Shown piece after piece: positions 10,547 through 46,544 of a stretch of 64,000 nt of DNA. The translations under genes were made by a program, and so were the position numbers. The DNA is from Rhizobium sp. GN54 (GTDB lineage Bacteria > Pseudomonadota > Alphaproteobacteria > Rhizobiales > Rhizobiaceae). Within the stretch, counting starts at the first letter, position 1. The number at the start of each line of letters is the position of its first letter. The DNA lies in the NCBI RefSeq assembly GCF_021026345.1, contig NZ_JAJNCZ010000002.1, forward strand, positions 1-64,000, read 5' to 3'. The notes below the pieces were generated by a model that did not search any database, was not told the DNA's origin, and saw only the letters and a program-made list of their open reading frames with translations.

Positions 10547-10673
10547 GGCGTCCTTTCCGCGTCGCCGGAAGCTGCCCTTGATCTGCCCGGCGGATTGGTC
10601 CAACCTTCCGCTTCAGGGCTTTGGCCCGGTTGATCGGCAGACGGTCCTGCCGTGGGGAGGAAAGGGCTGCGCC

Positions 10674-22224: not shown

Positions 22225-22400
22225 AATTCGCTCGCTGTCGATTGCGGCCGGACGCCGCGCCATCCGCGCCAAAACGTGTAAGCTGAACGTCATCTGCCGG
22301 GCTTCCGGCATGGCATCGCGCGGCGGGACCGGCTGCGTGAGGTCCGTCCGCCTGTTGCGGGCAACGCATCGAACCACCGGTCGACAAGCGGGCAGGAACC

Positions 22401-31043: not shown

Positions 31044-31052
31044 GAAACGAGT

Positions 31053-31070
31053 GCCCGCCGCAAGGCGGGC
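31053..31070 (+). other. Stable GCAA-tetraloop hairpin between acrB and tetR
   Basis: GCCCGCC-GCAA-GGCGGGC is a perfect 7-bp stem with a GNRA loop. It lies 9 bp after the acrB stop and ends 21 bp before the regulator start. There is no T-run, so termination is doubtful. It could protect the acrAB transcript end or lower expression of the regulator. Confidence 0.5.
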
Positions 31071-31091
31071 GCTCCCGGCTACGGGGGGACC

Positions 31092-31703
31092 ATGCGCAGG
31101 ACCAAAGCTCACGCCGAAGCCACGCGCCAGCAGATACTCCATGCAGCGGAGCGTGTGTTCTTCGAAAAGGGCGTCTCCAACGCCTCGATGGAAGAGGTGG
31201 CGCTTGCCGCCGGCGTGACCCGCGGCGCCATCTACTGGCATTTCGCCAACAAGTCCGATCTCTTCATGGAGCTCTACAAGTCCGTGCCGCTGCCGCAGGA
31301 GGACATGATCGCCCGCGAGCTCGAGGTGGAAGGCGTTGACGTGTTCGCGGTGATCGAGCGCATGGCGGCGGAATGGCTCGAGGTGCTGGCGAAGGACGAG
31401 CAGCGCCAGCGGATCCTGTCGATCCTGCTGCGCTGCGACTATGGCGGCGAACTGGCGCCGGTGCTGGCGCAGCAGCAGCAGGTCTTCGACGAGCATGTGC
31501 GCATCCTTGAGAAGGCCTTCGCCCGGGCAGCCGAGATGGGCAAGCTCGACCGCTGCTGGACGCCGCGCGCGCTCGCCTCTTCCTTCTGCTGGATGATGAA
31601 GGGGCTTTGCGTCGAATGGCTGCTGTTCGGCCGCCGCTTCGACCTCGCCGCCGAAGGCCGCGACGGCCTTTCGCGCTTCATTCGCGGCCTGCGGGCGGCC
31701 TGA
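31092..31703 (+). CDS. TetR-family repressor, AcrR type
   Basis: 203 residues from ATG 31092 after GGGGGG. The N-terminal helix-turn-helix (residues 9-55) shows TRQQILHAAERVFFEKGVSNASMEEVALAAGVTRGAIYWHFANKSDLF in overlapping blocks, close to AcrR. The C-terminal domain also follows the AcrR pattern (RILSILLRCDY, WMMKGLCVEWL). It is the likely repressor of acrAB and of itself through the site at 26531-26557. Placement downstream of acrB rather than divergent is unusual compared with enterobacteria, and makes negative feedback within one transcript likely. Confidence 0.88.
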   Translation: MRRTKAHAEATRQQILHAAERVFFEKGVSNASMEEVALAAGVTRGAIYWHFANKSDLFMELYKSVPLPQEDMIARELEVEGVDVFAVIERMAAEWLEVLAKDEQRQRILSILLRCDYGGELAPVLAQQQQVFDEHVRILEKAFARAAEMGKLDRCWTPRALASSFCWMMKGLCVEWLLFGRRFDLAAEGRDGLSRFIRGLRAA

Positions 31704-32055: not shown

Positions 32056-33294
32056 CTATCGCAGTCCCGGCGGCGTGGCCGTGCGTCGCGCCAGCTTCAC
32101 GAAGGGTCGCGGGACGATCTTCGCACGCTTCATCATCTTCTGGTACTTCAGTTCGCGCATCGCATAGATTTCCACCCAGAGGTCGTCGACGAACCGCGTG
32201 CCATAGGGTCGGTCGAGACTGGCAATCGCGACGTTGCGCTTGGCGGTGGGCGACCAGATGGCGGCGGTGACGAGGCCCGCCTCGCGCTTGCCGCGGTGAT
32301 AGACGAAAGCATGCTCGGCCGGAATATTCCCTTCGATTTCAAGGCCCACGAGGACATGCTTCAGAGTTTGATTCCGGCGCGCGTCGAGAATGGCGCGGCG
32401 GCCGTTGAAGTTCGGCTTGTCCGGATCGACCAGCCAGTCGAGGCCGATCTCGTCGGGCAGGCGCACGCGGTCGGCGCGAAGCGCTGCCTCGGCGGTGACG
32501 AAGTCGGCATTGGCGACGATGAAGCCGGCCTCGATGCGCGTGCGATTGAGCGCGGCGTAGCCGATGGCGCGGATGCCGTGGTCGGCGCCGGCCGTCCAGA
32601 GACGGTCCCAGAGCGGCAGGGCGGCCTGGCGCGGGACGAACAGCTCGTAGCCGAGGTCGCCGGTGAAGCCCGTGCGCGAGACCGTGACGGTCCCTCCGTC
32701 ATGGGCAAAGCTTCCGATGTCGAAGGGCTTCAGCCGTTCGGCACCGGAAAAGCCGGCTTTGGCGAGCACGGCATAGCTCGTCGGCCCCTGCAGGGCGACG
32801 CCGGCGATTTCCTCGGTCTCTTCGCGGATGTCCACGGCAAGGCCGAAGGCGCTGTCGAGCAGCCAGGGCAGGTGGCGCTCCTGGCAGCAGAGGCGGAAGT
32901 CCTGGTCGCCGAGCCGGAACAGCGTGCCGTCGTCCAGCACGTGGCCGTCGTCGTCGCACCAGGCGGTGTAGTGCACGCGGCCGACGCCGAGCTTGCGCAC
33001 GTCGCGCAGCGTCAGCCGGTTGAGATAGCGTTCGGCGTCAGGGCCGTCGATCCGGTATTTCACCATCGGCGAGATGTCGAAGAGCGCTGCCGTCGAGCGG
33101 ATTGCGAAATATTCGAGCTCCTCGTCGAAGAGCGCATGCGGGGCCTTGCAGCCTGCCCAGTTGTACCAGTCGTTGACCGCGTCGAGGGCGGAAAGCCGCG
33201 GATGGAAGGGCGTTTCCAGCCGCGGGGTGGCGATATGGTCGCGCGCCGCGCGGCGCGCCTCGGCCGCGTTTGCAGGCTTGGTCAGGGCGTTCAT
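32056..33294 (-). CDS. Aminomethyltransferase-like (GcvT family) protein
   Basis: 412 residues from ATG 33294, overlapping the stop of the upstream flavoprotein gene by 4 bp (ATGA). GcvT fold: VNDWYNWAGCKAPHALFDEELEYFAIRSTAALFDIS near the start, GRVHYTAWCDDDGHVLDDGTLFRL, VSRTGFTGDLGYELFVPRQ and GYAALNRTRIEAGF. A C-terminal barrel follows. Members transfer a one-carbon group from a methylamine or sulfonium donor to tetrahydrofolate (glycine cleavage T protein, DMSP demethylase, the T half of dimethylglycine dehydrogenases). No other glycine-cleavage gene is nearby, so it probably serves N-demethylation. Last gene of a three-gene minus operon under the operator at 36558-36576. Confidence 0.85.
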   Translation of the reverse strand: MNALTKPANAAEARRAARDHIATPRLETPFHPRLSALDAVNDWYNWAGCKAPHALFDEELEYFAIRSTAALFDISPMVKYRIDGPDAERYLNRLTLRDVRKLGVGRVHYTAWCDDDGHVLDDGTLFRLGDQDFRLCCQERHLPWLLDSAFGLAVDIREETEEIAGVALQGPTSYAVLAKAGFSGAERLKPFDIGSFAHDGGTVTVSRTGFTGDLGYELFVPRQAALPLWDRLWTAGADHGIRAIGYAALNRTRIEAGFIVANADFVTAEAALRADRVRLPDEIGLDWLVDPDKPNFNGRRAILDARRNQTLKHVLVGLEIEGNIPAEHAFVYHRGKREAGLVTAAIWSPTAKRNVAIASLDRPYGTRFVDDLWVEIYAMRELKYQKMMKRAKIVPRPFVKLARRTATPPGLR

Positions 33295-34892
33295 CGGCGG
33301 TCTCCGGCAAGGATATGGCGGGCGGCGTTCCAGCCGGCGAGGCCGGAGATGCCGCCGCCGGGGTGGGCGCCGGCACTGGCGAGATACAGGCCCTCGATCG
33401 GCGTGGCATAGCCGGAGGCCGCCCCCGTCGGCCGGTTGACCAGCAACTGGTCGGCCTGCAATTCGCCATGATGCCAATGGCCGCCGGGAAGATTGTATTC
33501 CGCCTCGATGTCTGCGGGCGTGGAAAGCTCGGCAGCGAGGATCGTGTCCGAGAGGCCCGGCGCGTGGCGCTCGAGGATGTCGATCACGATCCGCAGGAAG
33601 GCGGGCTTGCCGGTCTCCCAGCCCGCCTTGAGCTTGTAGGGTGCGTATTGCACCAGCGCCGAGAGCGTGCAGGCGCCGTCCGGCGCGAGCGTGCTGTCTG
33701 CCAGGCTCGGCAGCACGATCTCCATCACCGGATCGGGCGAGAACTCGCCGTACTTGGCCGGGTTGAAGGCGTTTTCGACATGGGTCATCGAGCGGGCGAT
33801 GACGATGCGGCCGGCGTGGTCGCGGCCGGAGAGGCCGGCGAAGCTCGGCATGCGCGAGAGCGCCAGGTCGAGCTTGGCGACGTTGCCGGCGGAGCGGACG
33901 TGGCGGATGGCGCGCAGGAAGCCTGTGCCGGTCTCTGCGGCATCGACGAGTTGCAGGAACGTCGCCTGCGGGTGGATGGCCGAGACGACCACCGGGGCGG
34001 ACAGCTCCGAGCCGTCTGCCAGCACGACGCCGCCGGCCTTGCCGCGATCGGCGAGGATGCGGCCGACGCGGGCGCCGCAGCGGATGGTGACGCCGGCCGT
34101 CTCCGCCGCCTTGAGGAAAGCGGGAGCGACCGCGGCCATGCCGCCCTGCGGGATGAACTGGCCGCCCGCCTTGCCGTCCGCTTCACCGGTGAGGCGATAG
34201 TAGAGGCCGAGCAACGATGTCGGCGAGCGCGGCCCGAGGTGAATGCCGAGCGTGGCGTCGAAGGCGAGCAGGCCCTTCAGCCGGTCGTCTTCGAGGTATT
34301 CGTCGGCGACGTCGGCGACGTTCATCAGGAGCATGCGCAGGAAATCGCGACCCTCGGCGCGGCCCTTGCGGATGACGCCGAAGCCGGCGGCCATCAACGT
34401 CGAGATGTCGCCGATGCCGATCGCGCCGAGTTGCGGCGGGGCGCGGCGCAGGAAACGCTTGAGGATGCCGGCCTGGAAGGTGAGCTTGTCGCGCAGGCGG
34501 GAGAAGGCCGCCGCCTCGTCCGCCGTCACGCCGTCGATCGTTTCGCCATAGGCGCCGCGGAGCACCGCCGGCTCGCGCTCGCCGTCGAGGACGGCGGTGG
34601 GCATGGCGGGGCCGGGCGTCGCCGCAAGCGCGATCCCGAGGTCGCGGGCGACTTCTGGATCGAGCCGGTTGACGAGGTGGGCGAGGCCGGCGGAGCGGAA
34701 GCCGGGGGCGAATTCGCGCCCGCGCATTGCGCCGCCCGGCGCATTCGCCGCCTCCAGCACCAGAACCCTGCGGCCGCTGCGGCCGAGCTTGGCGGCGGCG
34801 GCGAGGCCGTTGTGGCCGGCGCCGATGACGATCGCGTCATAGCTCTGCGCGGCGGTTTTCGGGGAACTCGGCGGTGCGTCAGATGACGTCAT
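33291..34892 (-). CDS. FAD-dependent oxidoreductase, PYROXD2/CrtI-like (second of pair)
   Basis: 533 residues. The N-terminal dinucleotide-binding motif AIVIGAGHNGLAAAAKLGRSGRRVLVLE begins at about residue 20. The middle shows PQGGMAAVAPAFLKAA and the C-terminus ends with GLYLASAGAHPGGGISGLAGWNAAR, the phytoene-desaturase-type FAD loop. This NAD(P)/FAD oxidoreductase group includes human PYROXD2 and many bacterial proteins of unknown substrate. It is not a carotenoid gene by context. The start overlaps the end of the upstream homologous gene by 14 bp, and its stop overlaps the aminomethyltransferase start. A heteromer with the preceding gene product is possible. Confidence 0.85.
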   Translation of the reverse strand: MTSSDAPPSSPKTAAQSYDAIVIGAGHNGLAAAAKLGRSGRRVLVLEAANAPGGAMRGREFAPGFRSAGLAHLVNRLDPEVARDLGIALAATPGPAMPTAVLDGEREPAVLRGAYGETIDGVTADEAAAFSRLRDKLTFQAGILKRFLRRAPPQLGAIGIGDISTLMAAGFGVIRKGRAEGRDFLRMLLMNVADVADEYLEDDRLKGLLAFDATLGIHLGPRSPTSLLGLYYRLTGEADGKAGGQFIPQGGMAAVAPAFLKAAETAGVTIRCGARVGRILADRGKAGGVVLADGSELSAPVVVSAIHPQATFLQLVDAAETGTGFLRAIRHVRSAGNVAKLDLALSRMPSFAGLSGRDHAGRIVIARSMTHVENAFNPAKYGEFSPDPVMEIVLPSLADSTLAPDGACTLSALVQYAPYKLKAGWETGKPAFLRIVIDILERHAPGLSDTILAAELSTPADIEAEYNLPGGHWHHGELQADQLLVNRPTGAASGYATPIEGLYLASAGAHPGGGISGLAGWNAARHILAGDRR

Positions 34893-36498
34893 GGGCGTTG
34901 CTCATCGTCTCGGGGCTGCGCTTGAGGTCGCGGAGGATCTCCATCGCGGCGTTGCGTCCGGGCGCGCCCATGACGCCGCCGCCCGGGTGGGTGGAGGAGC
35001 CGCAGATATAGAGGCCGGCGATCGGGCTGCGGTATTGCGCGTAGCCGGGCACCGGGCGGTTGAACAGGAGCTGGTCGAAGGTCAGTTCGCCCTGGAAGAT
35101 ATTGCCCTCTGTCAGCCCGACCTCGGCCTCCAGTTCGCGCGGGGTGCGCACCTCCATGTGGACAATGCGGTCGCGGAAGCCGGGCGAATAGTCGGCGATC
35201 TGGCCGACGACGGTCTCGGCGAAGGCTGTGCGGTCGGCGTCCGTCCAGTCGCGGCCCTCGACCTTCGGCGGGCAGTACTGCACGAAGCAACTCATGAAGT
35301 GCCTGCCGGGCGAGGTCATGGTCGGGTCGAGCGTCGTCGGGATCATCGTGTCGAGCATGGGATCGGCCGACCAGCGCCCTGCCTTCCAGTCGTCATAGGC
35401 GCGCTCCATGCGCTCGATGCTGTCGGTGAAATGCAGGTCGCCGCGGATGCAGGACGAGCCCTCCGGCAGGGCAGGGAACTCCGGCAGGCTGTCGAGCGCG
35501 ATGTTCACCTTGCCGGACGAGCCGCGCATCTTGAAGTGCTTGACCCGGTGGACGAAGTCTTCGGGCAGGTCGGCCTCGTCGACCAGTTTCAGAAAGGTGC
35601 GTTTCACGTCGGCATTGGAGACGACGAGGTTGGCGCGGATCTCTTCGCCGCTGTCCAGAACGACGCCTGTCGTGCGGCCGCCGCGCGAGAAGATCCTTGC
35701 GACCTCGGCGTCGGTGCGGATCGTGCCGCCGGCGGCGAGGAAGGAACTTGCCAGCGCCTGCGTCACCGCGCCCATGCCGCCACGGGCATAGCCCCAGGCA
35801 CCGACCGAGCCGTCCACCTCGCCCATGTAGTGATGCAGCAGCACATAGGCGGTGCCCGGAGACATGGGGCCGAGAGCGGTGCCGATGATGCCGGAGATCG
35901 CCAGATAGGCCTTGATCACGTCGGTCTCGAAATATTCGTCGAGGAAGTCGGAGATCGACATGGTCCAGAAGCGCAGCGTCTGCGCCATCTCGGCCGGGCT
36001 GAACTCGCCGAATTTCCTTGCGAGGTAAACGAGTTCGGCGATGTCGCGCGGGCGAAAACCGAAGGGATCGGGGGCGGTGCGCATCAGAAGCGGCTGGATG
36101 AAGCGGCACTGGCGGGTGACGTCGCGGGCATAGCGCTCATAGGCCTCGGCGTCGCGCTTCGAATAGCGGGCGAATTCGCGGCGGTGGCTGTCGTGGTCGC
36201 GGTAGGAGGCGAGGTAGTCGCCGTCGCGCGTCAGCACCGCGCCGCCCTCGTAGGCGACGACCTGCAGGCCGTGCCGCGGCAGGTCGAGGTCGCGCATGAT
36301 CTCGGGGCGGAACAGCGAGCAGACATAGGAACAGTTGGAATAGAGGAAGCCCGGCGTCAGCTCCCGGCTGGTGGCAGCCCCGCCGACCCAGCCGTTCTTC
36401 TCCAGCACTGCGACCTTCAGGCCGGCGCGCTGCAGGTAGCCGGCGGTCACCAGGCCGTTGTGGCCGCCGCCCACCACGAGGACGTCATATCGTTGCAT
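34879..36498 (-). CDS. FAD-dependent oxidoreductase, PYROXD2/CrtI-like (first of pair)
   Basis: 539 residues from ATG 36498. The FAD-binding start YDVLVVGGGHNGLVTAGYLQRAGLKVAVLEK, a middle YARGGMGAVTQALASSF and the C-terminal GLYICGSSTHPGGGVMGAPGRNAAMEI repeat the architecture of its neighbour, pointing to an old duplication. The substrate is unknown; amine or imine oxidation would fit the gene set. It is the first gene of the minus operon, 60 bp from the BetI-type operator. It overlaps the second flavoprotein gene by 14 bp. Confidence 0.85.
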   Translation of the reverse strand: MQRYDVLVVGGGHNGLVTAGYLQRAGLKVAVLEKNGWVGGAATSRELTPGFLYSNCSYVCSLFRPEIMRDLDLPRHGLQVVAYEGGAVLTRDGDYLASYRDHDSHRREFARYSKRDAEAYERYARDVTRQCRFIQPLLMRTAPDPFGFRPRDIAELVYLARKFGEFSPAEMAQTLRFWTMSISDFLDEYFETDVIKAYLAISGIIGTALGPMSPGTAYVLLHHYMGEVDGSVGAWGYARGGMGAVTQALASSFLAAGGTIRTDAEVARIFSRGGRTTGVVLDSGEEIRANLVVSNADVKRTFLKLVDEADLPEDFVHRVKHFKMRGSSGKVNIALDSLPEFPALPEGSSCIRGDLHFTDSIERMERAYDDWKAGRWSADPMLDTMIPTTLDPTMTSPGRHFMSCFVQYCPPKVEGRDWTDADRTAFAETVVGQIADYSPGFRDRIVHMEVRTPRELEAEVGLTEGNIFQGELTFDQLLFNRPVPGYAQYRSPIAGLYICGSSTHPGGGVMGAPGRNAAMEILRDLKRSPETMSNAHDVI

Positions 36499-36557: not shown

Positions 36558-36576
36558 TTGAATGAATATTCAGCAA
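36558..36576. promoter_or_regulatory. BetI-type operator, copy 1 (divergent promoter)
   Basis: TTGAATGAATATTCAGCAA. The core TGAAT-GAAT-ATTCA is an inverted repeat. It matches the sites at 43659-43675 and (reverse strand) 46526-46544; the shared consensus is TTGAAYGAAYRTTCA. It lies between the flavoprotein operon (minus) and the methyltransferase-regulator operon (plus), so one site can control seven genes. The likely binder is the BetI-like protein of 37470-38174. Confidence 0.7.
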
Positions 36577-36657
36577 GTATGTTGCAATCGCCTGATAATG
36601 CGCTAGAATTTCGCGTCGGGAATGACAGGGCGCGGGACGGTCTTGCGAGGGGAGATC

Positions 36658-37473
36658 ATGGCGGCGAACGGCGAGGCCGGGCAGGAGCACGAGCCGGAAT
36701 ACGACGACGAGGCGATCCGTTTCCTCGCGGTCGTATGGGGCGAGGGGTATCTGTCGCCCGGCGGTTCGCAGGAGGTGGACCGCGTGCTCGCGGGCATCGA
36801 TCTTTCGGGGAAGTCGGTGCTCGATTTCGGCTGCGGCGCGGGCGGCGTCACGCTGCACATCGCCAAGGCGCACGGGCCGGCGGAGATCGTCGGCTACGAC
36901 GTCGAGCAGCCGGTGGTCGACCGGGCGCGGGCGGCAGCGGTGCGCGAGGGGCTGACGGCGCAGGTCCGCTTCATCGCCACGCCGCCCAGCCGGCTGCCCT
37001 TCGACGACTGTGAGTTCGACCTCGTCTTTTCCAAGGATGCGATGGTGCATGTGCCCGACAAGGCGGCGCTCTTTGCCGAGCTCTTCCGCGTGCTGAAGCC
37101 CGGCGGCAGGCTTGCCGCCTCCGACTGGCTGATTTCCCATGACGGCGAGCCGTCGCAGGAGATGAAGGACTATATCGAAGCCGAGGGGCTGAGCTTCGGC
37201 ATGGCCTCTCCGTCGCATTACCTGCAGGCGATGGGTGCGGCCGGCTTTGCCGACGTCTCGACCACCGATCGCAACGGCTGGTACCGCGAGGTGGCGCGCA
37301 CCGAGCTGGAGCGGCTGCAGGGCGCTTTGCATGCCGCTGCCGTCGCCGCTGTCGGCGAGGCCTATGTCGCAAAGAATATCCGCACCTGGATCGCCATGCA
37401 GAAGGTGCTTGACAGCGGCGAACATTGCCCCACTCATCTTTTCGGCAGCAAGCCGGCCGGTGATCTTCCGTGA
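36658..37473 (+). CDS. SAM-dependent methyltransferase, phosphoethanolamine-methyltransferase-like
   Basis: 271 residues from ATG 36658, after GAGGGGAG 3-10 bp upstream. Class I Rossmann methyltransferase: SAM motif VLDFGCGAGGVTLHIA (about residues 58-73), acidic loop YDVEQPVVD and motif LVFSKDAMVHVPDKAALFAELFRVLKPGG. The segment FLAVVWGEGYLSPGG before motif I resembles the FGENYISxGG stretch typical of phosphoethanolamine/phosphocholine-type N-methyltransferases. It may methylate an amine, or move methyl groups in the same pathway as the demethylases around it. It leads the plus operon and overlaps the regulator gene by 4 bp (GTGA). Confidence 0.8.
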   Translation: MAANGEAGQEHEPEYDDEAIRFLAVVWGEGYLSPGGSQEVDRVLAGIDLSGKSVLDFGCGAGGVTLHIAKAHGPAEIVGYDVEQPVVDRARAAAVREGLTAQVRFIATPPSRLPFDDCEFDLVFSKDAMVHVPDKAALFAELFRVLKPGGRLAASDWLISHDGEPSQEMKDYIEAEGLSFGMASPSHYLQAMGAAGFADVSTTDRNGWYREVARTELERLQGALHAAAVAAVGEAYVAKNIRTWIAMQKVLDSGEHCPTHLFGSKPAGDLP

Positions 37474-38174
37474 ACGAGGCGCTGCGAAATCCCAAAATGA
37501 GAACGGCGGTGAAGATGCGGGCGAATGCGGCGCAGAAGGACGTGACTGACATCGAGAAGAAGGGCCGCAAGGCCTCCAAGGAGGCGAGGCGGCTGCAACT
37601 GATCGAGGCGACGATCGATTCGCTCGCCCGGCGCGGCTATGCCGAGACGACGCTGGCCGATGTCGCCGACGGGGCCGGGCTGTCGCGCGGCATCGTCAAT
37701 TTCCACTTCGAGAGCAAGGAAAAGCTGCTCGTTGCCACGCTGCAGGCGATGGCGGACGAATATGCCAACCACTGGAACTCGGCGCTGGAGAAGGCGGGGC
37801 CGCGGCCGGCCGAACAGCTCTGGGCGCTCGTCGCCGCCGATTTCGACCGGCGGATCTGCACCAAGCGCAAGCTGGCCGCCTGGTGCGCCTTCTGGGGCGA
37901 GGCCAAGTCGCGGCCGACCTACCAGGCGCTCTGCGGCGCGCGCGACGTCAAGTACCAGGAGATGGTGATCTCGCTCTGCGCCGCGCTGAAGGCGGAGGGC
38001 GGCTACGACTATGCGGCCGAGCCGATGGCGCTTTCCGTCTCCAGCATGCTGGAAGGGCTGTGGCTGCGCCTGATGATGGGCAACGGCCTCACCCGCGAGC
38101 AGGCGCACGAGGCGGCGATCGAGGCGATCGTCGCGCTGTTTCCGAAGCACATCGCCAGAAACGGACCGAAATAG
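37470..38174 (+). CDS. BetI-like TetR-family regulator
   Basis: 234 residues from GTG 37470, coupled to the methyltransferase by a 4-bp overlap. Later in-frame ATGs at 37497 and 37515 are alternatives. The helix-turn-helix lies at about residues 36-80 (RRLQLIEATIDSLARRGYAETTLADVADGAGLSRGIVNFHF in overlapping blocks). The C-terminal domain follows BetI: KRKLAAWCAFWGEAKSRPTYQ and LSVSSMLEGLWLRLMMG. BetI itself represses choline-betaine genes and responds to choline. The three conserved palindromes at 36558, 43659 and 46526 are the likely targets. The ligand here is unknown, probably the imported amine. Confidence 0.87.
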   Translation: MNEALRNPKMRTAVKMRANAAQKDVTDIEKKGRKASKEARRLQLIEATIDSLARRGYAETTLADVADGAGLSRGIVNFHFESKEKLLVATLQAMADEYANHWNSALEKAGPRPAEQLWALVAADFDRRICTKRKLAAWCAFWGEAKSRPTYQALCGARDVKYQEMVISLCAALKAEGGYDYAAEPMALSVSSMLEGLWLRLMMGNGLTREQAHEAAIEAIVALFPKHIARNGPK

Positions 38175-38199
38175 CCAACCAGAAAAAGGGGGAATGCGC

Positions 38200-39279
38200 A
38201 TGAGCAACTCGAACAGGGCCGGAGCTTTTCTCGCGGCCGTCATGGCCGCGGCGTTGTCCCTCTCGACCGCCCCGCCAGCCGCAGCCGACGGGCTGACGGT
38301 GTTCGACTGGTCGGGCTACGAGGATCCGGCCTTCTTTCCCGCCTATATGGAGAAATACGGAAGCCCGCCGGATTTCGCCTTCTTCGGCGACGAGGAAGAG
38401 GCGTTCCAGAAGCTGCGGGCCGGCTTCAAGGCCGATGTCGCCCATCCCTGTTCGCAGAGCGTGGCGAAATGGCGCGACGCTGGGCTGCTGGAACCGCTGG
38501 ACACCTCGAGGCTGAGCCACTGGGACGATGTCCTGCCGGGCTTCAAGGCGATGAAGGGCCTGATGACCTCCGATGACGGCACCGCCTGGCTGATCCCGTT
38601 CGAATGGGGCAATACCGTGCTCACCTACCGTACCGACACCGTCAAGCCGGAGGAGGTGGCCTCGCTGAAGGCCTTTGCCGATCCGAAGTTCAAGGATCGC
38701 GTGTCGATCGGCGACAATGTCGACGATGCCTATGCGCTGGCGGCGCTCGCGATCGGGCTGAAGGATTGGTCGAAGATGACCGACGAGCAGTTCCAGGCGG
38801 CTTCCGATTTCCTGCGCGAGGTGCACCAGAACGTCAGGCTCTACTGGACCGACAACACCGAGGTGAGCCAGGCGATGGCGGCCGGCGAGATCGACCTCGC
38901 CTGGGCCTGGAACGAGACGGCGGCGACGCTGCAGTCGGAAAGCGTGCCGGTCGACATCAGGCGCGACACGGTCGAGGGGCTGTCCACCTGGGTGTGCGGC
39001 TACGTGCGGCTGAAGGGGGGGACGGGAAGTGCCGACCAGGCCTACGACTATCTCAACGCGCTGACCGATCCGGCCATCGCGCCCTACATGGTCGAGACCT
39101 GGGGCTACGGCCACGCCAACGCCAAGGGCATGGCGTCCGTCGATCCGGCCATCCTGAAGCAGAAGGGCTACGGCGACGTCGAGGCCTTCATGGCCGATAC
39201 GCTGTTCCAGTCCCCCTTGCCGAACGCGTTGCGCCAGAAGATGATCGCCGAGTTCGAGAAGATCAAATCGGGATACTGA
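38200..39279 (+). CDS. PotD-like ABC substrate-binding protein
   Basis: 359 residues. Tandem ATGs occur at 38194 and 38200; GGGGG sits 8 bp before the second, which is preferred. Sec signal peptide with cleavage near AAA-DG (residues 29-31). The mature part opens LTVFDWSGYEDPAFFPAYMEKYG and has an FGDEEEAFQKLRAGFKADVAHPC segment, the pattern of spermidine/putrescine-type binding proteins (PotD/SpuE class). These bind cationic amines. The cognate permease and ATPase genes are in the converging minus operon 40644-43495. Last three bases of its stop overlap the start of the amine oxidase gene. Confidence 0.88.
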   Translation: MSNSNRAGAFLAAVMAAALSLSTAPPAAADGLTVFDWSGYEDPAFFPAYMEKYGSPPDFAFFGDEEEAFQKLRAGFKADVAHPCSQSVAKWRDAGLLEPLDTSRLSHWDDVLPGFKAMKGLMTSDDGTAWLIPFEWGNTVLTYRTDTVKPEEVASLKAFADPKFKDRVSIGDNVDDAYALAALAIGLKDWSKMTDEQFQAASDFLREVHQNVRLYWTDNTEVSQAMAAGEIDLAWAWNETAATLQSESVPVDIRRDTVEGLSTWVCGYVRLKGGTGSADQAYDYLNALTDPAIAPYMVETWGYGHANAKGMASVDPAILKQKGYGDVEAFMADTLFQSPLPNALRQKMIAEFEKIKSGY

Positions 39280-40541
39280 TGTCGCAGCGTCATGACGTCC
39301 TTGTCGTCGGGGCCGGCTTTGCCGGCCTTTCGGCCGTGGCCTCGCTGCTCGACAGGGGCATGGACGTGGTGGTGCTGGAAGCTGCGGCTCGCGTCGGCGG
39401 GCGGGTCGAGTCCGCCGTGTTCAATGACGGGACCCGCGTCGACACCGGCGCGCAGTTCGTCTGCGACGACATGGAAAACGTCATCGCGCTCCTCGCCCGC
39501 TACGGCAAGACGCTGGTGCACACGCCGATGGCGGGCGAAAGCGTCGTTCAGCCGCCCGGGCGTGATGATGACGAGGCCTATGCGCGCTCGCGCGCCCTGC
39601 GGCTGCAACTGCGCGGGCTCAATCCGGCCGATCCGGCGCTCGCCGGGCTGACGGTCGCCGACTGGCTGGCGGCGCAGTCCGTCAGCCCGGACACAGCACT
39701 CGCCTTCCGCTCGACCGTCGAGGGCCTGTGGTGTCGGCCGATCGGCGAACTGCCGCTCTGGTATCTGGTCTCGAACGACCGGCGCATCACCAACCGGCAG
39801 ACCGAGATCGAGTATTTCGTCGGGGAGACCATCCATTCGCTGGCCGAGGACATGGCCGCCGCTCTCGGCAGCCGCCTGCGGACCGGCCATCCGGTGACGC
39901 GGATCGCGACCGGGCCGGACGGCGTCGAGGCCAGTGCCGCCGGCGCAAGCATTTTCGCCCGGCAGGCGATCGTCGCCGTGCCGCCGGTGATGGCCTCGCG
40001 CATCGCCTACGAACCCGGCCTGCCGCCGAAACTCTCGGCCGCGCTCGGCGCCTGGCGCAGCGGCACGGTGATCAAGGCGCTCGTCCGCTACCGCAGGCCG
40101 TTCTGGCGCGACGAAGGGCTCAGCGGGCTGGTGGCCTGGCGCGATCCGGTCGGCCTGTTCTCCTGCGACGTTAGCCGCGACGGGCCGGGTGCGACCCTCG
40201 TCGTCTTCATCGCCGGACCACTGGCGCAGTCCTGGCGGCAGGGGCCGGAAGCGCAATTGCGGGAAACGATCCTTGAGAAACTCGCCGCCGCCCTCGGCGC
40301 GGAGGCTGGAAACGCCGTTGATCTGATCGTCCGCGACTGGACCGACGACCTCTGGTGCGGCGGCGGCTATGGCGACACGATCTTCGACATGCAGGCCCGG
40401 GACGCCGAGGACATCCTTCGCGCCGGCTTCGGCCCGATCCGTTTCGCCTGCGCGGAACTGTCGCCGTCGTTTCCCTGCTATGTCGAGGGAGCGATCGTGG
40501 CGGGGAGGGCTGCGGTGGAGGCGATGAGTTGCAGGCAGTAG
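39279..40541 (+). CDS. Flavin-containing amine oxidase
   Basis: 420 residues from ATG 39279, which shares its A with the previous stop (TGATG). FAD-binding start HDVLVVGAGFAGLSAVASLLDRGMDVVVLEAAARVGGRV, typical of monoamine oxidase-type flavoproteins. The substrate domain follows with VEGLWCRPIGELPLWYL, and the C-terminal FAD contact SPSFPCYVEGAIVAGRAAVEA. Oxidative deamination or demethylation of an amine is expected. The covalent-FAD cysteine motif of eukaryotic MAO is not evident. Its last codons (CRQ-stop) fall within a GGCARTA heptamer repeat. Confidence 0.88.
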   Translation: MSQRHDVLVVGAGFAGLSAVASLLDRGMDVVVLEAAARVGGRVESAVFNDGTRVDTGAQFVCDDMENVIALLARYGKTLVHTPMAGESVVQPPGRDDDEAYARSRALRLQLRGLNPADPALAGLTVADWLAAQSVSPDTALAFRSTVEGLWCRPIGELPLWYLVSNDRRITNRQTEIEYFVGETIHSLAEDMAAALGSRLRTGHPVTRIATGPDGVEASAAGASIFARQAIVAVPPVMASRIAYEPGLPPKLSAALGAWRSGTVIKALVRYRRPFWRDEGLSGLVAWRDPVGLFSCDVSRDGPGATLVVFIAGPLAQSWRQGPEAQLRETILEKLAAALGAEAGNAVDLIVRDWTDDLWCGGGYGDTIFDMQARDAEDILRAGFGPIRFACAELSPSFPCYVEGAIVAGRAAVEAMSCRQ

Positions 40542-40561
40542 CCAATAGGCAGTGGGCAGTA
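40534..40561. repeat. Heptamer array, left arm (GGCARTA)4
   Basis: Four consecutive 7-mers GGCAGTA GCCAATA GGCAGTG GGCAGTA. The first supplies the end of the amine oxidase gene (its last codon and TAG stop). The array is the inverted counterpart of the longer array at 40610-40658, so the transcript can form a long stem with a 48-nt loop. Confidence 0.85.
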
Positions 40562-40609
40562 GAGCGCCGTTGTTCCGCAGCATTGGCACTCCGGGAATCG
40601 CGGACAATC

Positions 40610-40658
40610 TATTGCCTATTGCCTATTGCCTATTGCCTATTGCCTATTGCCTACTGCC
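40610..40658. repeat. Heptamer array, right arm (TATTGCC)6 TACTGCC
   Basis: Six perfect copies of TATTGCC followed by one TACTGCC, reading rightward; on the minus strand GGCAGTA then six GGCAATA. The end of the converging ATPase gene (SRQ-stop) lies inside it. With the left array it forms an inverted repeat between two convergent genes, where it could act as a bidirectional stop or mRNA-end stabiliser. Perfect copies suggest recent slippage expansion. Confidence 0.9.
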
Positions 40659-41750
40659 TCCTTCCTCCGCCAGCAGCACGAACGCCTCCGGATCGTAGGC
40701 CAGCCTGATGTCGGCGCCGAGCGGCAGGTCGTCGGCGCCGTAGTCGTTGGTCTCGATCATGGAGAGCGGCTGCTCCAGCCCGTCGACGCCGATCGTCAGG
40801 TGCGTCACCTCGCCGAAATAGGCGCGATTCTCGACGCGGCCGACGAGTTCGTGCGGCGCGCGTTCGTCGTCCCACAGCAGGCGCAGGCGTTCCGGGCGGA
40901 TGCCGACTGTGACGTGGCCGTTGGTGGGTGCGAAGCCCTTCGGCCGCTCCAGCCTGATCGTGCCGAAGCGGGCGGTCTCGACGCTGACGCTGTCGCTGCG
41001 TTCGGAGGTGAGCTTCGCCTGCAGGAAGTTCATGCCGCCGAGGAAGTCGGCGACCCTGCGGGTGCGGGGGCGCTGGTAGATCTCCTTCGGGGTGGCGACC
41101 TGGGCGATCCTGCCGCCGAACATCACGGCGATGCGGTCCGACAGCGCCAGCGCCTCGTACTGGTCGTGGGTGACGAGGATGAAGGTGATGCCGACCGCCT
41201 TCTGCAGGCTGCGCAGTTCCACCTGCATCTGCTCGCGCAGCTTCTTGTCCAGTGCCGACAGCGGCTCGTCGAGAAGCAGCACCTTCGGCCGCATGACGAG
41301 CGCGCGGGCAAGCGCGACGCGCTGGCGCTGGCCGCCGGACAGTTCGTTCGCCTTGCGCCGGTCGAGCCCCGTCAGCCGGACCTGGTCGAGCGCGTCGGCG
41401 ACGCGACGGCGCTCCTCGGCGGCGTCGAGCTTCAGCCGCTTCAGCCCGTAGGCGACGTTCTCGCCGACGTCGAGATGGGGGAAGATCGCGTAGTTCTGGA
41501 AGACCATGTTGGTGGGGCGCCTGTTGGCGGGCAGGAGCGTGCTCGGCGTGCCGTCGATCCTGATCTCGCCGGCCGTCGGCACGTCGAAGCCCGCGATCGA
41601 GCGCAGCAGCGTGGTCTTGCCGCAGCCGGAGGGGCCGAGCAGCGAGAAGAACTCGCCGGCGCCGATTTCCAGCGATACGTCGTCGAGCGCGCGGTAGCTG
41701 CCATAGTATCGCGAGACGTTTTCGATCGAGATCATCGGGCGGTCCGGCAT
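40644..41750 (-). CDS. PotA-like ABC transporter ATPase
   Basis: 368 residues from ATG 41750. Walker A GPSGCGKTT, Q-loop MVFQNYAIFPH, signature [16 protein letters not shown], Walker B VLLLDEPLSALD, switch VTHDQYEAL. A C-terminal TOBE domain with VGIRPERLRLLW is typical of polyamine/2-aminoethylphosphonate-type importers. Last gene of the minus operon permease-permease-ATPase, 12 bp after the PotC-like gene. Its final residues are encoded by the heptamer array. Confidence 0.92.
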   Translation of the reverse strand: MPDRPMISIENVSRYYGSYRALDDVSLEIGAGEFFSLLGPSGCGKTTLLRSIAGFDVPTAGEIRIDGTPSTLLPANRRPTNMVFQNYAIFPHLDVGENVAYGLKRLKLDAAEERRRVADALDQVRLTGLDRRKANELSGGQRQRVALARALVMRPKVLLLDEPLSALDKKLREQMQVELRSLQKAVGITFILVTHDQYEALALSDRIAVMFGGRIAQVATPKEIYQRPRTRRVADFLGGMNFLQAKLTSERSDSVSVETARFGTIRLERPKGFAPTNGHVTVGIRPERLRLLWDDERAPHELVGRVENRAYFGEVTHLTIGVDGLEQPLSMIETNDYGADDLPLGADIRLAYDPEAFVLLAEEGGSRQ

Positions 41751-41762
41751 GGCGGGCTCCTG

Positions 41763-42578
41763 TCAGGGCGCGGGGGTGGCTTGCGTGCGTCGCTCCGCCC
41801 GCCGGCGCATGACCTCGGCTGCGGTGAGAAGGAGGACGGAGGCGAGGATCATCAGGCTGCCGAGCGCGAGCACGCCGGGCAGCTTCGCGGCGAAGCGGAG
41901 CTGGCCCCAGATATAGACCGGCAGCGTCGGCTCGGTGCCGGAAAGGAAGAAGGCGAGGATGAACTCGTCGAGCGAGATCGTGAAGGTGACGAGCAGGCTG
42001 GAGACGATCGCCGGCGCCACGACCGGCAGGGTGACGCGCCGGAAGGTGCCGATCGCCGTCTCGCCGAGGTCGTAGGAGGCTTCCTCGAGGCTGCGGTCGA
42101 AGCCCTCGAATCCGGAGACGAGCACGGACATGGAATAGGGGATGCAGAAGACGACCTGACCGAGGATGACGGTCACGAGCGACAGTTCCAGCCCCATCTG
42201 CAGAACGATCATCAGGAGCGACACGGCGACGATGATCTCGGGCAAGAACAGCGACGCCATGATCAGGCCCGTGGCGGGGCGCTGGCCGCGGAAGCGGTAG
42301 CGGGTGATGGCGCGGGCGGCGCAGATGCCGAGGATGGTGCTGATCAGCGAGACGCAGACGCCGACGATCAGGCTGTTGCGCGCCGCCTGCAGGAGCACCG
42401 TGTTGCCCCAGAGCGAGGCGTACCACTTGGTCGTGAAGCCGGCGAGCGGCAACGTCGTGGTGGCCGCGTCGTTGAAGGAGAACACCGGCAGGAGCAGGAT
42501 CGGCAGGTAGAGGAAGAGGAAATAGACCGCCACATAGACGGGCAGGAAGGGGAGGAGGCGGAGCCTGTGCAGCAGCAT
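41763..42578 (-). CDS. PotC-like ABC transporter permease
   Basis: 271 residues from ATG 42578, which touches the stop codon of the upstream permease gene (TGATG). Six transmembrane helices; the first spans about residues 10-33. The EAA loop is present: LEEASYDLGETAIGTFRRVTLPVVAP. Inner-membrane partner of the PotB-like protein for uptake of a cationic or amino compound. Confidence 0.92.
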   Translation of the reverse strand: MLLHRLRLLPFLPVYVAVYFLFLYLPILLLPVFSFNDAATTTLPLAGFTTKWYASLWGNTVLLQAARNSLIVGVCVSLISTILGICAARAITRYRFRGQRPATGLIMASLFLPEIIVAVSLLMIVLQMGLELSLVTVILGQVVFCIPYSMSVLVSGFEGFDRSLEEASYDLGETAIGTFRRVTLPVVAPAIVSSLLVTFTISLDEFILAFFLSGTEPTLPVYIWGQLRFAAKLPGVLALGSLMILASVLLLTAAEVMRRRAERRTQATPAP

Positions 42579-43495
42579 CAGCGGATCCTCCGGACGACGA
42601 GGCGCAGGGCCAGCACGACGGCGGCCGCGACGAGGGAGACGAGCACCATGGTGGTGACCGAGAGTGCTGCGCCCAGCGGCCAGTTGGCGCCCTTGCCGAA
42701 CTGCGCCTGGATGGCGGTCGCGATCATCACCCCGTCCTTGCCGCCGACCAGCTTGGGCGTGACATAGTCGCCGACGGTGGGGATCATCACGATCAGGAAG
42801 GCGGAGACGACACCGGGCATGGACAGCGGCAGGGTGACGCGCAGAAAGGCGCGCATCGGCCCGTCGCCGAGATCGCGCGCCGCCTCGATCAGCGAGCGGT
42901 CGATCTTCTGCAGGGAGACGTAGATCGGCAGGATGGCGAAGGCCGCCCAGCTGTGGACGAGGGTGATGACGACGGCATTGGCGTTGTAGAGAAGCGAGGT
43001 GATCGGCTGGTCGATCAGGCCGGCCGACATCAGGCCGGTGTTGAGCACGCCGCCGTAGCCGAGGATCACCTTCCACGACATGACGCGCAGCAGGTAGCTG
43101 GTCCAGCAGGGAATGGTGACCAGGAAGAGCCAGAGGTTCCTGTGCGCCCCGCCATGGAAGGAGATGAACCAGGCGACCGGATAGGAGAAGCCGACGGTGA
43201 TCGCGCTGGTTGCGAGCGAGATCCACAGCGAGCGGATGAACAGGTCGCGGTAGATCGGCTCGGTCAGGGCCTGGCGATAGTTCTCCAGGGTGAAGGAGCG
43301 GTCGATTTCGAGGTAGTTCTGCGTCCAGAAACTGTAGGCGACGACGAGCGTGACCGGGACGAGCAGCAGCGCGAGCGCATAGAGGAGGGTCGGCGAGATC
43401 ATCGCCAGACCGCGGGCCTCCTCGCTGCGCATCCACCGGCCGCGAGCCGCAGGCTTGACCGCTCCCGGCGACGAGTCGATCGCCACGGAACTCAT
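42578..43495 (-). CDS. PotB-like ABC transporter permease
   Basis: 305 residues from ATG 43495. About 30 cytosolic residues precede the first helix (MISPTLLYALALLLVPVTLVV). The EAA loop reads IEAARDLGDGPMRAFLRVTLPLSMP. First gene of the transporter operon, starting about 165 bp from the operator at 43659-43675 it shares with the divergent aminotransferase gene. The binding protein gene is in a separate unit (38200), so transporter assembly depends on coordinated control of two promoters. Confidence 0.92.
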   Translation of the reverse strand: MSSVAIDSSPGAVKPAARGRWMRSEEARGLAMISPTLLYALALLLVPVTLVVAYSFWTQNYLEIDRSFTLENYRQALTEPIYRDLFIRSLWISLATSAITVGFSYPVAWFISFHGGAHRNLWLFLVTIPCWTSYLLRVMSWKVILGYGGVLNTGLMSAGLIDQPITSLLYNANAVVITLVHSWAAFAILPIYVSLQKIDRSLIEAARDLGDGPMRAFLRVTLPLSMPGVVSAFLIVMIPTVGDYVTPKLVGGKDGVMIATAIQAQFGKGANWPLGAALSVTTMVLVSLVAAAVVLALRLVVRRIR

Positions 43496-43658
43496 GGTTT
43501 CGCTCGTTTCGCGCGCTGATCGTGGCGAACCGGTGCGGGACAGCGCCCGCTCCCCTGCATTTGCGACATCGCGACCGCCTTTTCGGCTCGTTGCTGTTCC
43601 CGGATTGAAGATGAGCGCAAACCGGCATTGAAATCAAGCGGTTTTTCTGAGATATTGA

Positions 43659-43675
43659 TTGAACGAACATTCAAT
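43659..43675. promoter_or_regulatory. BetI-type operator, copy 2
   Basis: TTGAACGAACATTCAAT, in a wider ATTGATTGAACG...TTCAATATA context. Matches the sites at 36558 and 46526. It lies between the divergent permease and aminotransferase genes. The ATTGAT...TTCAATATA frame resembles, from memory, the bet operator bound by enterobacterial BetI. Confidence 0.7.
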
Positions 43676-43680
43676 ATATT

Positions 43681-43703
43681 ATTGAAACTCGTTTTGTTTC
43701 AAT
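43681..43703. promoter_or_regulatory. Second inverted repeat beside operator copy 2
   Basis: ATTGAAAC-TCGTTTT-GTTTCAAT, perfect 8-bp arms with a 7-bp spacer, 5 bp beyond the BetI-type site and 46 bp before the aminotransferase start codon. It shares the ATTGAA half-site and may be an auxiliary regulator site or a second regulator's operator. Confidence 0.5.
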
Positions 43704-43749
43704 ATGTTGAATGCCTGAGTATACTGTCAATATTGGTCCGGAGTGGGGA

Positions 43750-45174
43750 ATGGCTGCGATACCGAAGACGATCCTGGAAGCCGGCTCTGCAGGCGAAGAG
43801 GCAAAGGACGAACTGACCCGCCTTGCCGAGGGGCACCTCGTGCAGCCCTGGCCGGTATCGGGATCGATCGGGGCGGAAGCGCGCGGGCGGCTCGAGGCCG
43901 GCGAGGGGATCTACGTCACCGACGCGGCGGGCCGCAGGCTGATCGACGGACCGGCGGGCATGTGGTGCGTCAATGCCGGCCACCGGCGCCGGGAACTCGC
44001 CGACGTCATGGCCGCGCAGGCGATGGAGCTCTCCTACAACTCGCCCTGGTACACGACGAACGCGCCCTCTGCGATCCTGTCGAAGCGGCTCGCCGATCAT
44101 GCGCCGCAGGGCGTCGACCACGTGTTCTACACGACCGGCGGCTCGTCGGCCGTCGAGACGGCGCTGCGCTTCATGCAGTTCGCCAACAACGTCAAGGGAC
44201 GGGGGGAGAAGAAGCTGATCGTCTCCCGCCAGGGCGGCTATCATGGCTCGACCTATCTGTCGGCCTCGCTGAACGGCCGTCCGCGCGACCACGACTGGAT
44301 GGACAGCGCCGGCGAGCAGGTGGTCAAGCTCACCTGCCCGAACCCGTTCCGCCGGCCCGACGGCGTCGGGGCGGCGGAGTTCTGCGACTATCTCGTCGCC
44401 GAGTTCCGCACTCTCATCGAGACGGCCGGGGCCGAGCGCATCGGCGCCTTCGTCGCCGAACCGGTCATGGCCTCGGGCGGCGTCATCGTGCCGCCGGACG
44501 GCTATCTCTTGCGGATGCGCGAACTCTGCCGGGAACACGATATCCTCTTCATCGCCGACGAGGTGGTGACGGCCTTCGGGCGGCTCGGGCAGGTGTTCGC
44601 CTCCGAAGACGTGTTCGGGCTCGACCCGGACATGATCACCTTCGCCAAGGGCGTCACCTCGGGCTACTTCCCGCTCGGCGGGGTGATGATCGCAGGGCGG
44701 CTCCTGGAGGAACTGCGCCGCTCCAACCACTCCGAGGCGATGTTCGCGCACGGGCTGACCTATTCCAGCCATCCGGTCGGCTGCGCGGTGGCCCTGAAGA
44801 ACCTCGACATCCTCGAAGATGGCCTGCTGGAGCATGCCCGCGCCGTCTCCGCCCACTTCCAGTCGCGGCTGAAGGCGCTGGAGGACCTGCCGCTCGTCGG
44901 CGAGGTGCGCGGCATGGGGCTGATGGCCTGCGTCGAATGCGTGGCCGACCGGGTCAGCAACAATCCGCTGACGCTCGACCTGGAGGTGGGCAAGCGCATC
45001 GACGGGCACTGCCAGGAACTGGGGCTGCTGGTGCGGCCGCTGATCAACATGTGCGTGATGTCGCCGCCGCTGACGATCACGCAGGCCCAGATCGACGACA
45101 TGGCCGACATCCTGCGCCGCGGCATCGAACTGACGATGGACGATCTTGTGCGGGAGCGGCTCTGGAAGGGTTGA
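43750..45174 (+). CDS. Class III (omega-)aminotransferase
   Basis: 474 residues from ATG 43750, with GGAG 6 bp upstream; an earlier in-frame ATG at 43711 lies inside the operator region and lacks a ribosome site. Fold type I PLP enzyme: YTTGGSSAVETALRFMQF, IADEVVTAFGRLG with Asp270 contacting the pyridine nitrogen, and the Schiff-base lysine Lys300 in TFAKGVTSGYFPLGG. The sequence falls with putrescine/beta-alanine:pyruvate-type omega-transaminases. It probably transfers the terminal amino group of the imported amine or of a breakdown product to an oxo-acid. Monocistronic, divergent from the transporter operon. Confidence 0.9.
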   Translation: MAAIPKTILEAGSAGEEAKDELTRLAEGHLVQPWPVSGSIGAEARGRLEAGEGIYVTDAAGRRLIDGPAGMWCVNAGHRRRELADVMAAQAMELSYNSPWYTTNAPSAILSKRLADHAPQGVDHVFYTTGGSSAVETALRFMQFANNVKGRGEKKLIVSRQGGYHGSTYLSASLNGRPRDHDWMDSAGEQVVKLTCPNPFRRPDGVGAAEFCDYLVAEFRTLIETAGAERIGAFVAEPVMASGGVIVPPDGYLLRMRELCREHDILFIADEVVTAFGRLGQVFASEDVFGLDPDMITFAKGVTSGYFPLGGVMIAGRLLEELRRSNHSEAMFAHGLTYSSHPVGCAVALKNLDILEDGLLEHARAVSAHFQSRLKALEDLPLVGEVRGMGLMACVECVADRVSNNPLTLDLEVGKRIDGHCQELGLLVRPLINMCVMSPPLTITQAQIDDMADILRRGIELTMDDLVRERLWKG

Positions 45175-45319
45175 GGCGGGGGCCTCCGGGGGCGGGCGAT
45201 GATCCTCGGATCAGGCGTCCTGGCCGCAAGGCCATGTCGTCGCCCGCTCCCGTTGTCTGTCCGGGTGGACTTGCTGCGCCGTCCGCGCCCCGCTCGCTCG
45301 AAGCGGCGATCGTTGCCGC

Positions 45320-46510
45320 TCACCGCATCCCGGCATTCACCGCCGCCATGCCGCCTTCCTCCGGGGCCTCGGCAAGGGTCATCACCGGCAGGACCTTGCG
45401 CAGGTGATCGTGGTGGGTGCGCACGCCGTATTCGAGGTCGGAGAGGTAGAAGCCGGCGAAGGCGGCAGACGTCATTGCCTCGTTGGACCAGATCGTCAGT
45501 TGCACGTCCTCGGCCTGGGTGTCGCGATCGATGCGGGCGGCGAGGTAGCGGGCGGCGGCCTGCTCGCGGGTCTCGTCGCGGTAGCGGTAGACGGCGCCGC
45601 GCAGCATGGTGCGGCCGACCGCGAGCGGGAATTCCTGGTAGAACTGCAGGCTCTCCGGCGTCACCGCAATCACCGCGTTCGGGAACAGGCCGAAATAGAT
45701 CCACGCCTTGCGCAGGTGCGCGGGCAGGGCGGTGTTTTCGGGCGCGATCTTGACGTAGCGTCCGACGCTCCAGCGGCGGCCGGCATGCGGGTTGAAGGTC
45801 GCGAAGGACCGGCAGAGCCCGTCGACGAAGGGCTCGTCGTAGTAGGTTGAGCCGTAGAGATCCTGCAGCGCCGGATGGGCCATGGCCACGTGGTAGCCTT
45901 CGTTGTCGACGTCGCGCACCGATTTCCAGTTGACCGGCGTCTCCTGCGTGTGGATCTCCCCGACCGGCACCATTTCGGCCGGGCGGTAGTGGGAGAGTTC
46001 GGCCTCGAACGGGCGCATCATCTCGGCGACGGAGGGCTGCGGCCCGGGGGCGAAGCGGATGAAGACGAAGCCCTGCCACACCTCGCATTCGATCGTCTTC
46101 AGCGCGAATTCGTTCTTGTCCATCGGCGGGAAGGAGCGGGGGCGGGCAGCGCCCCTAAGCGTTCCGTCAAGATTGTAGACCCAGCCGTGGAAGGGACAGA
46201 CGAGCGCGTTGCGACAGGTGCCGCTCCCGTCGGCGACGAGCCGCGAGCCGCGGTGGCGGCAGATATTGTGGAAGGCCTTCACCGCGCCTTCCTGGTCGCG
46301 CAGGACCAGAGCCCGCTCGCCGACGATGTCGAGGGTGATGTAGTTGCCGGCCTCCGGAATGTCGGAGACGTGGCAGGCGATCTGCCAGTGCTCGCGGAAG
46401 ACATGCTGCTTTTCCAGCTCCAGCAGGGCGGCGCTGTGGTAGCACCAGCCGGGCAGTCCGCTGCGATCCCAGTCGTTCGGAATGGAGATGTCACGGATCA
46501 CCTCGTTCAT
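45320..46510 (-). CDS. Rieske non-heme iron oxygenase, alpha subunit (N-demethylase type)
   Basis: 396 residues from ATG 46510 (GGGGAAG upstream). Upstream in-frame ATGs overlap the operator and are rejected. The Rieske [2Fe-2S] site is C84xH86 (ICRHRGS) with C105xxH108 (CPFHGW). The mononuclear iron site is H207 and H212 in DNEGYHVAMAHPAL. This arrangement is that of glycine betaine, carnitine and stachydrine monooxygenases, which remove methyl groups or cleave quaternary amines. No reductase or ferredoxin gene is adjacent, so electrons must come from a distant partner. Controlled by the operator at 46526-46544. Confidence 0.9.
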   Translation of the reverse strand: MNEVIRDISIPNDWDRSGLPGWCYHSAALLELEKQHVFREHWQIACHVSDIPEAGNYITLDIVGERALVLRDQEGAVKAFHNICRHRGSRLVADGSGTCRNALVCPFHGWVYNLDGTLRGAARPRSFPPMDKNEFALKTIECEVWQGFVFIRFAPGPQPSVAEMMRPFEAELSHYRPAEMVPVGEIHTQETPVNWKSVRDVDNEGYHVAMAHPALQDLYGSTYYDEPFVDGLCRSFATFNPHAGRRWSVGRYVKIAPENTALPAHLRKAWIYFGLFPNAVIAVTPESLQFYQEFPLAVGRTMLRGAVYRYRDETREQAAARYLAARIDRDTQAEDVQLTIWSNEAMTSAAFAGFYLSDLEYGVRTHHDHLRKVLPVMTLAEAPEEGGMAAVNAGMR

Positions 46511-46525
46511 GGTCTTCCCCATATT

Positions 46526-46544
46526 TTGCTGAACGTTCATTCAA
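46526..46544. promoter_or_regulatory. BetI-type operator, copy 3 (Rieske gene)
   Basis: On the minus strand TTGAATGAACGTTCAGCAA, centred on the perfect palindrome TGAACGTTCA. It shares TTGAAYGAAYRTTCAGCAA with copy 1 over all 19 positions. It ends 16 bp before the Rieske start codon, where it would block transcription initiation. Confidence 0.7.

Follow-up and report, generated by a model that had tools for sequence, protein, structure and literature searches.

Three copies of one near-palindromic element lie in front of a block of 12 genes in Rhizobium sp. GN54, which raises the question of which protein reads them and what they switch. The block is part of a stretch of 64,000 nucleotides (contig NZ_JAJNCZ010000002.1, positions 1 to 64,000 of assembly GCF_021026345.1), hereafter the window. 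An earlier note on this DNA had proposed a single local regulon under the TetR-type gene at 37470-38174, and the conservation of the element at the same promoters in relatives argues for this proposal. Judging from the comparisons below, it is quite probable that a TetR repressor, which would also regulate its own gene, governs the import of a quaternary or N-methyl amine and its demethylation and deamination step by step. The 12 genes are very probably switched on and off together, with the regulator and its putative operators conserved in dozens of relatives. The sites, their conservation, their co-occurrence with the regulator and the protein families are direct observations, and they point to a conserved, locally acting regulon that we consider real. 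The three sites, each with an exact match to the 15-mer TTGAAYGAAYRTTCA, are as follows.

36558..36576, plus strand: operator 1, between the divergent FAD2 and methyltransferase-TetR-SBP-amine oxidase units (15-mer at 36558-36572)
43659..43675, plus strand: operator 2, between the divergent aminotransferase and ABC permease units (15-mer at 43659-43673)
46526..46544, minus strand: operator 3, 19 bp 5′ of the Rieske oxygenase start codon (15-mer at 46530-46544)

The earlier note had placed the motif correctly, and these are the only three exact copies in the genome of 5,567,253 bases in 28 contigs. The 19 positions that it saw shared by copies 1 and 3 were also confirmed, TTGAAYGAAYRTTCAGCAA being matched in the window by those two alone. 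Operator 2 has the 16-bp core TTGAACGAACATTCAA and an extra TTGA at 43655. Base composition (60-67% GC) predicts approximately 0.005-0.02 exact matches per genome by chance, a flattering figure since the degenerate 15-mer was built from the three copies themselves; other genomes were therefore used as the real test. Allowing one mismatch adds two matches in the genome, one inside an open reading frame (ORF; C12:234869) and one over the opening codons of another (C25:22879), and the reversed control pattern gives one match at the same tolerance. The coding status of both sites comes from ORF lists, with their proteins taken without family search. Because both lie in apparent coding sequence, they were rejected as further regulon members, the genome-wide search extending to one mismatch. 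Within the window, up to three mismatches yield 7 matches versus a shuffle mean of 2.3 (2 of 100 shuffles reach 7), six of them overlapping the three operator sites. The distance of the sites from start codons varies (approximately 60, 25 and 19 bp), site 2 lying also 164 bp 5′ of the permease A start. Promoter scans returned consensus-like matches in the vicinity of sites 1 and 2 but not at site 3, too weak for placing transcription starts.

The three promoter regions could serve all 12 genes, as had been claimed, in five apparent units. Site 1 separates FAD2-FAD1-GcvT (minus) from methyltransferase-TetR-SBP-amine oxidase (plus), site 2 separates the aminotransferase (plus) from permease A-permease B-ATPase (minus), and site 3 precedes the Rieske oxygenase (minus). 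Protein families were assigned with Pfam and NCBIfam profiles.

32056..33294, minus strand: GcvT-like folate-dependent aminomethyltransferase (GCV_T 187.9 bits; trimethylamine N-oxide (TMAO) demethylase model 262.8 bits, cut-off 1100)
33291..34892, minus strand: flavin adenine dinucleotide (FAD) oxidoreductase 1 (FAD1), of one superfamily with FAD2 and overlapping it (NF045689 205.3 bits)
34879..36498, minus strand: FAD oxidoreductase 2 (FAD2), CrtO/phytoene-desaturase-like (NF045689 298.7 bits, cut-off 1000)
36622..37473, plus strand: S-adenosylmethionine-dependent methyltransferase (Methyltransf_25/11)
37470..38174, plus strand: TetR-family regulator, predicted repressor and autoregulator (TetR_N 47.9 bits; TetR_C_6, of BetI type, 58.1 bits)
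38194..39279, plus strand: PotD-like substrate-binding protein (SBP; PotD model 81.9 bits, cut-off 582; PDB 8y5h, E-value 1.1e-21)
39279..40541, plus strand: FAD amine oxidase (Amino_oxidase 175 bits)
40644..41750, minus strand: ATP-binding cassette (ABC) ATPase, PotA-like (ABC_tran and TOBE_2)
41763..42578, minus strand: ABC permease B (BPD_transp_1)
42578..43495, minus strand: ABC permease A (BPD_transp_1)
43711..45174, plus strand: class III aminotransferase (PRK07036 677.9 bits, cut-off 618; Aminotran_3)
45320..46510, minus strand: Rieske oxygenase (Rieske 71.6 bits and Ring_hydroxyl_A 96 bits; nearest solved relative carnitine monooxygenase)

Two genes outside the regulon occupy 27906-31703. 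The first presumably encodes an RND-type (resistance-nodulation-division) efflux transporter, identified from its translation. It is followed at 31092-31703 by an AcrR/MtrR-like TetR gene, and both adjoin the regulon without being part of it.

To follow the motif through related loci, we took the best 80 of 353 regulator relatives from species genomes. At up to two mismatches, the motif is present in 77 of the 80 loci and the reversed pattern in none. It lies 5′ of FAD2 in 75/75 loci, of the aminotransferase in 64/67, of permease A in 58/65, of the Rieske gene in 47/47 and of the methyltransferase in 54/55, and before the TetR gene itself in 17/80 (per-promoter counts leave out rows below 50% identity or coverage, as well as starts lying too close to the end of a locus). 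No such site precedes the SBP (0/72), ABC (0/66), GcvT (0/72) or amine oxidase gene (0/30), the last being present in 30 of the 80 loci when scored at ≥50% identity and coverage. Permuted control patterns, 31 in number, averaged at most 0.16 loci per promoter set, with a maximum of 3. The same three promoters carry sites in Rhizobiaceae, Phyllobacteriaceae and Paracoccaceae, and the sites travel with the genes where modules are inverted or split (e.g. L038, L039, L043, L048 and L055). Spacing is likewise maintained: in the 31 non-redundant loci (cut at 85% regulator identity; sites at up to two mismatches), the Rieske operator is 15-20 bp 5′ of the start codon in 16/16 and the FAD2 operator 57-68 bp in 24/27. 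In a de novo count of 10-mers the best word at each operator promoter was part of the operator; operator-free gene starts also score high in this count, since coding sequence lies upstream of them. Two operator subtypes remain distinct from genus to genus, the FAD2/methyltransferase and Rieske sites mostly ending in TTCAGCAA or TTCAACAA and the aminotransferase/permease sites mostly reading TTGATTGAACGgACATTCAAtAT; the two subtypes may mean different affinities.

The second sample, 61 genomes consisting of our own and 60 relatives, was not selected via the regulator. The exact motif is found in 15 of them and the regulator in 15: both occur in 12, the regulator only in 3, the motif only in 3 and neither in 43 (Fisher p = 1e−7, kinship uncorrected). 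Of the 30 exact matches across all 61 genomes, 26 lie within 13 kb of a FAD2 orthologue on the same contig. The exceptions are those in G007, G018 and G060 and a fourth on a separate contig of G036, with no cluster gene found in the 11 kb around this last one. With one mismatch allowed, 47 of the 61 genomes have some match, and single relaxed matches therefore mean little.

These data suggest a scenario where the TetR-family product of 37470-38174 reads the three sites as its operators. As long as no inducer is present, the regulator would bind and block all three promoter regions, site 3 lying about where transcription must start, and would repress its own gene, a member of the site 1 unit. 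Its release by an amine or a breakdown intermediate would turn on uptake through the PotABCD-like transporter together with catabolism. Breakdown may begin with the Rieske enzyme, which would take the first N-methyl group of a quaternary amine (or cleave a C−N bond). More N-methyls could then pass to folate through the two FAD proteins together with the GcvT protein, leaving a free amine for the aminotransferase to deaminate.

The nature of the amine may be approached through the Rieske oxygenase. Its nearest solved relative is the carnitine monooxygenase CntA (6y9c, E-value 4.3e−32), followed by 3vca and 4qup (about 6e−27); 4qup is labelled demethylase, and we take it to be the stachydrine enzyme Stc2. 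The best profile match, glycine betaine oxygenase NF058607, is far under its cut-off (140 of 670 bits). By alignment the bridging glutamate (CntA E205) is retained and conserved as E204. The clade has the signature RDVDNEGYH, in which Asp202 occupies CntA position 203, in 55/55 rows at ≥65% identity and also in the 10 at 43-57%, the rows including some places of one genome twice. According to the accessible part of PMC7948474, this position holds Tyr or Phe in group Va and Asn in group Vb. The enzyme thus has the residue of neither group, Asp202 replacing the cation-binding Tyr (Va) or Asn (Vb). The Cys-X-X-Cys pair is absent from the clade in rows down to 43% identity; as far as PMC10952381 is accessible, this pair occurs only in some group V members. 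Some relatives have suggestive genes nearby, each scoring below its model cut-off: in L115 12254-17824 (relative G021) the Rieske gene adjoins genes for a CoA ligase, an acyl-CoA dehydrogenase and a GbdR-like AraC regulator (226.5 of 480 bits), L043 has a crotonobetainyl-CoA-hydratase-like gene (308.6 of 500 bits), and L106 one resembling carnitine-3-dehydrogenase (590.6 of 592 bits). These neighbours hint at carnitine- or betaine-type compounds, their membership in the regulon being putative. Homarine, considered as a further candidate substrate, is neither favoured nor disfavoured; the text searches listed no work on its pathway, which is described in a paper cited by PMC13390433.

Could the sites instead be bet operators to which the genome's real BetI binds, making the block responsive to choline? 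Such a BetI exists on another contig (C1:449042, 235 bits, over cut-off), adjoining betC (choline sulfatase) and betB (betaine-aldehyde dehydrogenase), and the outer arms TTGA...TCAA are common to both operators. However, the palindrome beside betI-betC-betB, TTGACTGGCCAATCAA, is 4 mismatches from the 15-mer. The resemblance of copy 2 to the bet operator that had been noted thus extends to the arms and not to the core. The BetI1 box, as given in the accessible part of PMC12442346, is ATTGACGCGTCAAT. The proteins differ as well. The block's regulator combines an N-terminal TetR helix-turn-helix (PF00440, 47.9 bits, cut-off 24) with a BetI-type C-terminal domain, has the conserved near-palindromic site 1 in front of its own unit, and falls under both BetI models (TIGR03384, 117.8 of 201.3 bits; NF001978, 112.0 of 118, a near miss by 6 bits); it shares 23% identity with the true BetI. 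Calling it BetI-like is hence right for the C-terminal domain family and wrong for the protein. Moreover, the stretch LSRGIVNFHF, which we take to be the DNA-reading helix of TetR proteins, is identical in 32/32 family members compared, whereas the genome's BetI has VSPALAHHYF. Among the regulators at 55-66% identity, 2/3 have LSRGIVNFHF and 3/3 a cluster site at up to two mismatches. Profile assignments revealed no bet genes among the 12. BetI, with its different bet palindrome and helix, was therefore rejected as the reader, and control of the block by choline through it is very improbable. We likewise rejected the AcrR-type TetR gene at 31092-31703, homologues of which lie near the block in only 4 of the 41 loci compared (L040 and L042 excluded; flanks of about 10 kb). 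The count of recurrent genes was dominated by antisense ORFs, and few families were used from it; the regulator tree, with 9 of 18 inner branches open and with long branches, served only for family names and pairwise identities.

A chance resemblance of the three sites in a block that is not co-regulated has a negligible probability: the window count at up to three mismatches is only modestly above the shuffles, but conservation at the same promoters over many genera, with near-empty controls, is precisely the outcome that refutes it. Somewhat more room must be left for a regulator that acts wholly or partly as an activator, since the distances to start codons vary between sites and site 2 is remote from the permease A start. 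TetR proteins are mostly repressors, however, and site 3, kept at 15-20 bp 5′ of the start codon, is placed as expected for obstructing initiation; activation is thus improbable. The same regulatory model could also hold with a different substrate. A polyamine-like cation is less likely than a trimethylammonium acid of the betaine or carnitine type, yet has an appreciable probability. The PotD-like binding protein and the amine oxidase gene found in part of the loci would fit a polyamine, whereas the sub-cut-off GbdR-like, crotonobetainyl-CoA-hydratase-like and carnitine-3-dehydrogenase-like genes near the Rieske enzyme in some relatives speak for a trimethylammonium acid.

The repressor model with a quaternary or N-methyl amine as substrate can be compared with known systems. 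BetI is alike in being a TetR protein with a BetI-type C-terminal domain, TTGA...TCAA operator arms and a local amine regulon, and unlike in sequence, model scores, helix, operator core and its adjacent bet genes. Some alphaproteobacteria have a pair of BetI proteins, of which the second recognises boxes that differ from the bet box, as stated in the accessible part of PMC12442346. The same part of that source describes Ruegeria pomeroyi BetI2 (SPO1086), also a second BetI-type regulator with boxes not matching the bet box, its two boxes having AAACTTGAAC in common; BetI2 differs in driving betTA with choline as effector, a distinction drawn from the description and not from protein sequence. 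The accessible part of PMC4560400 gives no BetI operator. With group V Rieske oxygenases (CntA, GbcA, Stc2) the block enzyme shares its nearest solved relative, CntA, the Rieske and Ring_hydroxyl_A domains and the bridging glutamate E204; it differs in Asp202, in lacking Cys-X-X-Cys and in the lack of a reductase gene in the block. Dimethylglycine oxidase and TMAO demethylase similarly couple a GcvT-like folate protein to FAD oxidoreductases, whereas in the block the CrtO-like FAD proteins are separate, unfused polypeptides. Neither the operator strings nor a description of the cluster and its regulator turned up in the searched literature, mostly papers available without subscription. In form this is an ordinary TetR regulon. 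Both the regulator-operator pair and the controlled pathway are apparently undescribed.

Seven remoter stretches with the Rieske enzyme (L102-L108) have no 15-mer site at up to two mismatches. Regulators 33-43% identical stand beside this enzyme set in L102, L107 and L108, and none was found in the other four. Their helices read LSQGVAVFYF in L102 and L108 and LSHGLVLFHF in L107. In L108 two promoters carry other palindromes, TTTGAGCGCTCAAA 5′ of FAD2 and TTGAGCGCTCAA 5′ of the SBP gene. L108, on a Parasedimentitalea marina plasmid, retains the FAD-FAD-GcvT-aminotransferase set. At 22245-22799, however, the Rieske protein beside its transporter genes shows Tyr where the clade has Asp202 (ENYNECYH), which looks like a replacement by a different oxygenase.

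Several observations weigh against the interpretation developed here. A joint shift of helix and operator has one clear case (L108) and a weaker one (L102), and is not seen in L107; the look-alikes upstream of the Rieske gene, TTGAACGCTCAA in L103 and TGAGCACTCA in L102, are imperfect and were picked by eye, and the palindrome script returned nothing at L107, L105 or L103 (L104 and L106 were outside its search). All 80 loci were chosen via the regulator, which builds in part of the co-occurrence seen there, and 7 of the 61 genomes belong to one genus. Three of the 61 carry the regulator without the exact motif (G016, G040 and G049, which have a site at up to two mismatches in their clusters) and three the motif without the regulator. 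In Shinella, L040, L042 and L050 (~10001-10702) encode a lone regulator of 68-70% identity without the enzymes or the motif. Finally, family profiles detected no reductase domain for the Rieske enzyme in the block. As a separate observation, the lone regulator gene of L042 comes after an AcrR-type TetR gene resembling the one at 31092 that borders our block.

Taken together, the comparisons allow a broader proposal, which we put forward tentatively and at somewhat less than even chances. The regulator may represent an undescribed non-BetI family with its own operator, controlling an uncharacterised alphaproteobacterial pathway for a quaternary or N-methyl amine. This pathway might start with the RDVDNEGYH Rieske clade, in which an acidic residue stands for the cation-binding aromatic residue or Asn, and helix and operator core could have changed together in remote relatives. 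For many soil- and plant-associated bacteria, and partly for remoter alphaproteobacteria, the previously unannotated 12-gene block becomes a testable unit with a predicted regulator and exact predicted sites, and a route to the substrate is to ask which amine releases the regulator protein. If true, the operator and helix differences among relatives would form a natural series that could serve as a test set for TetR DNA specificity.

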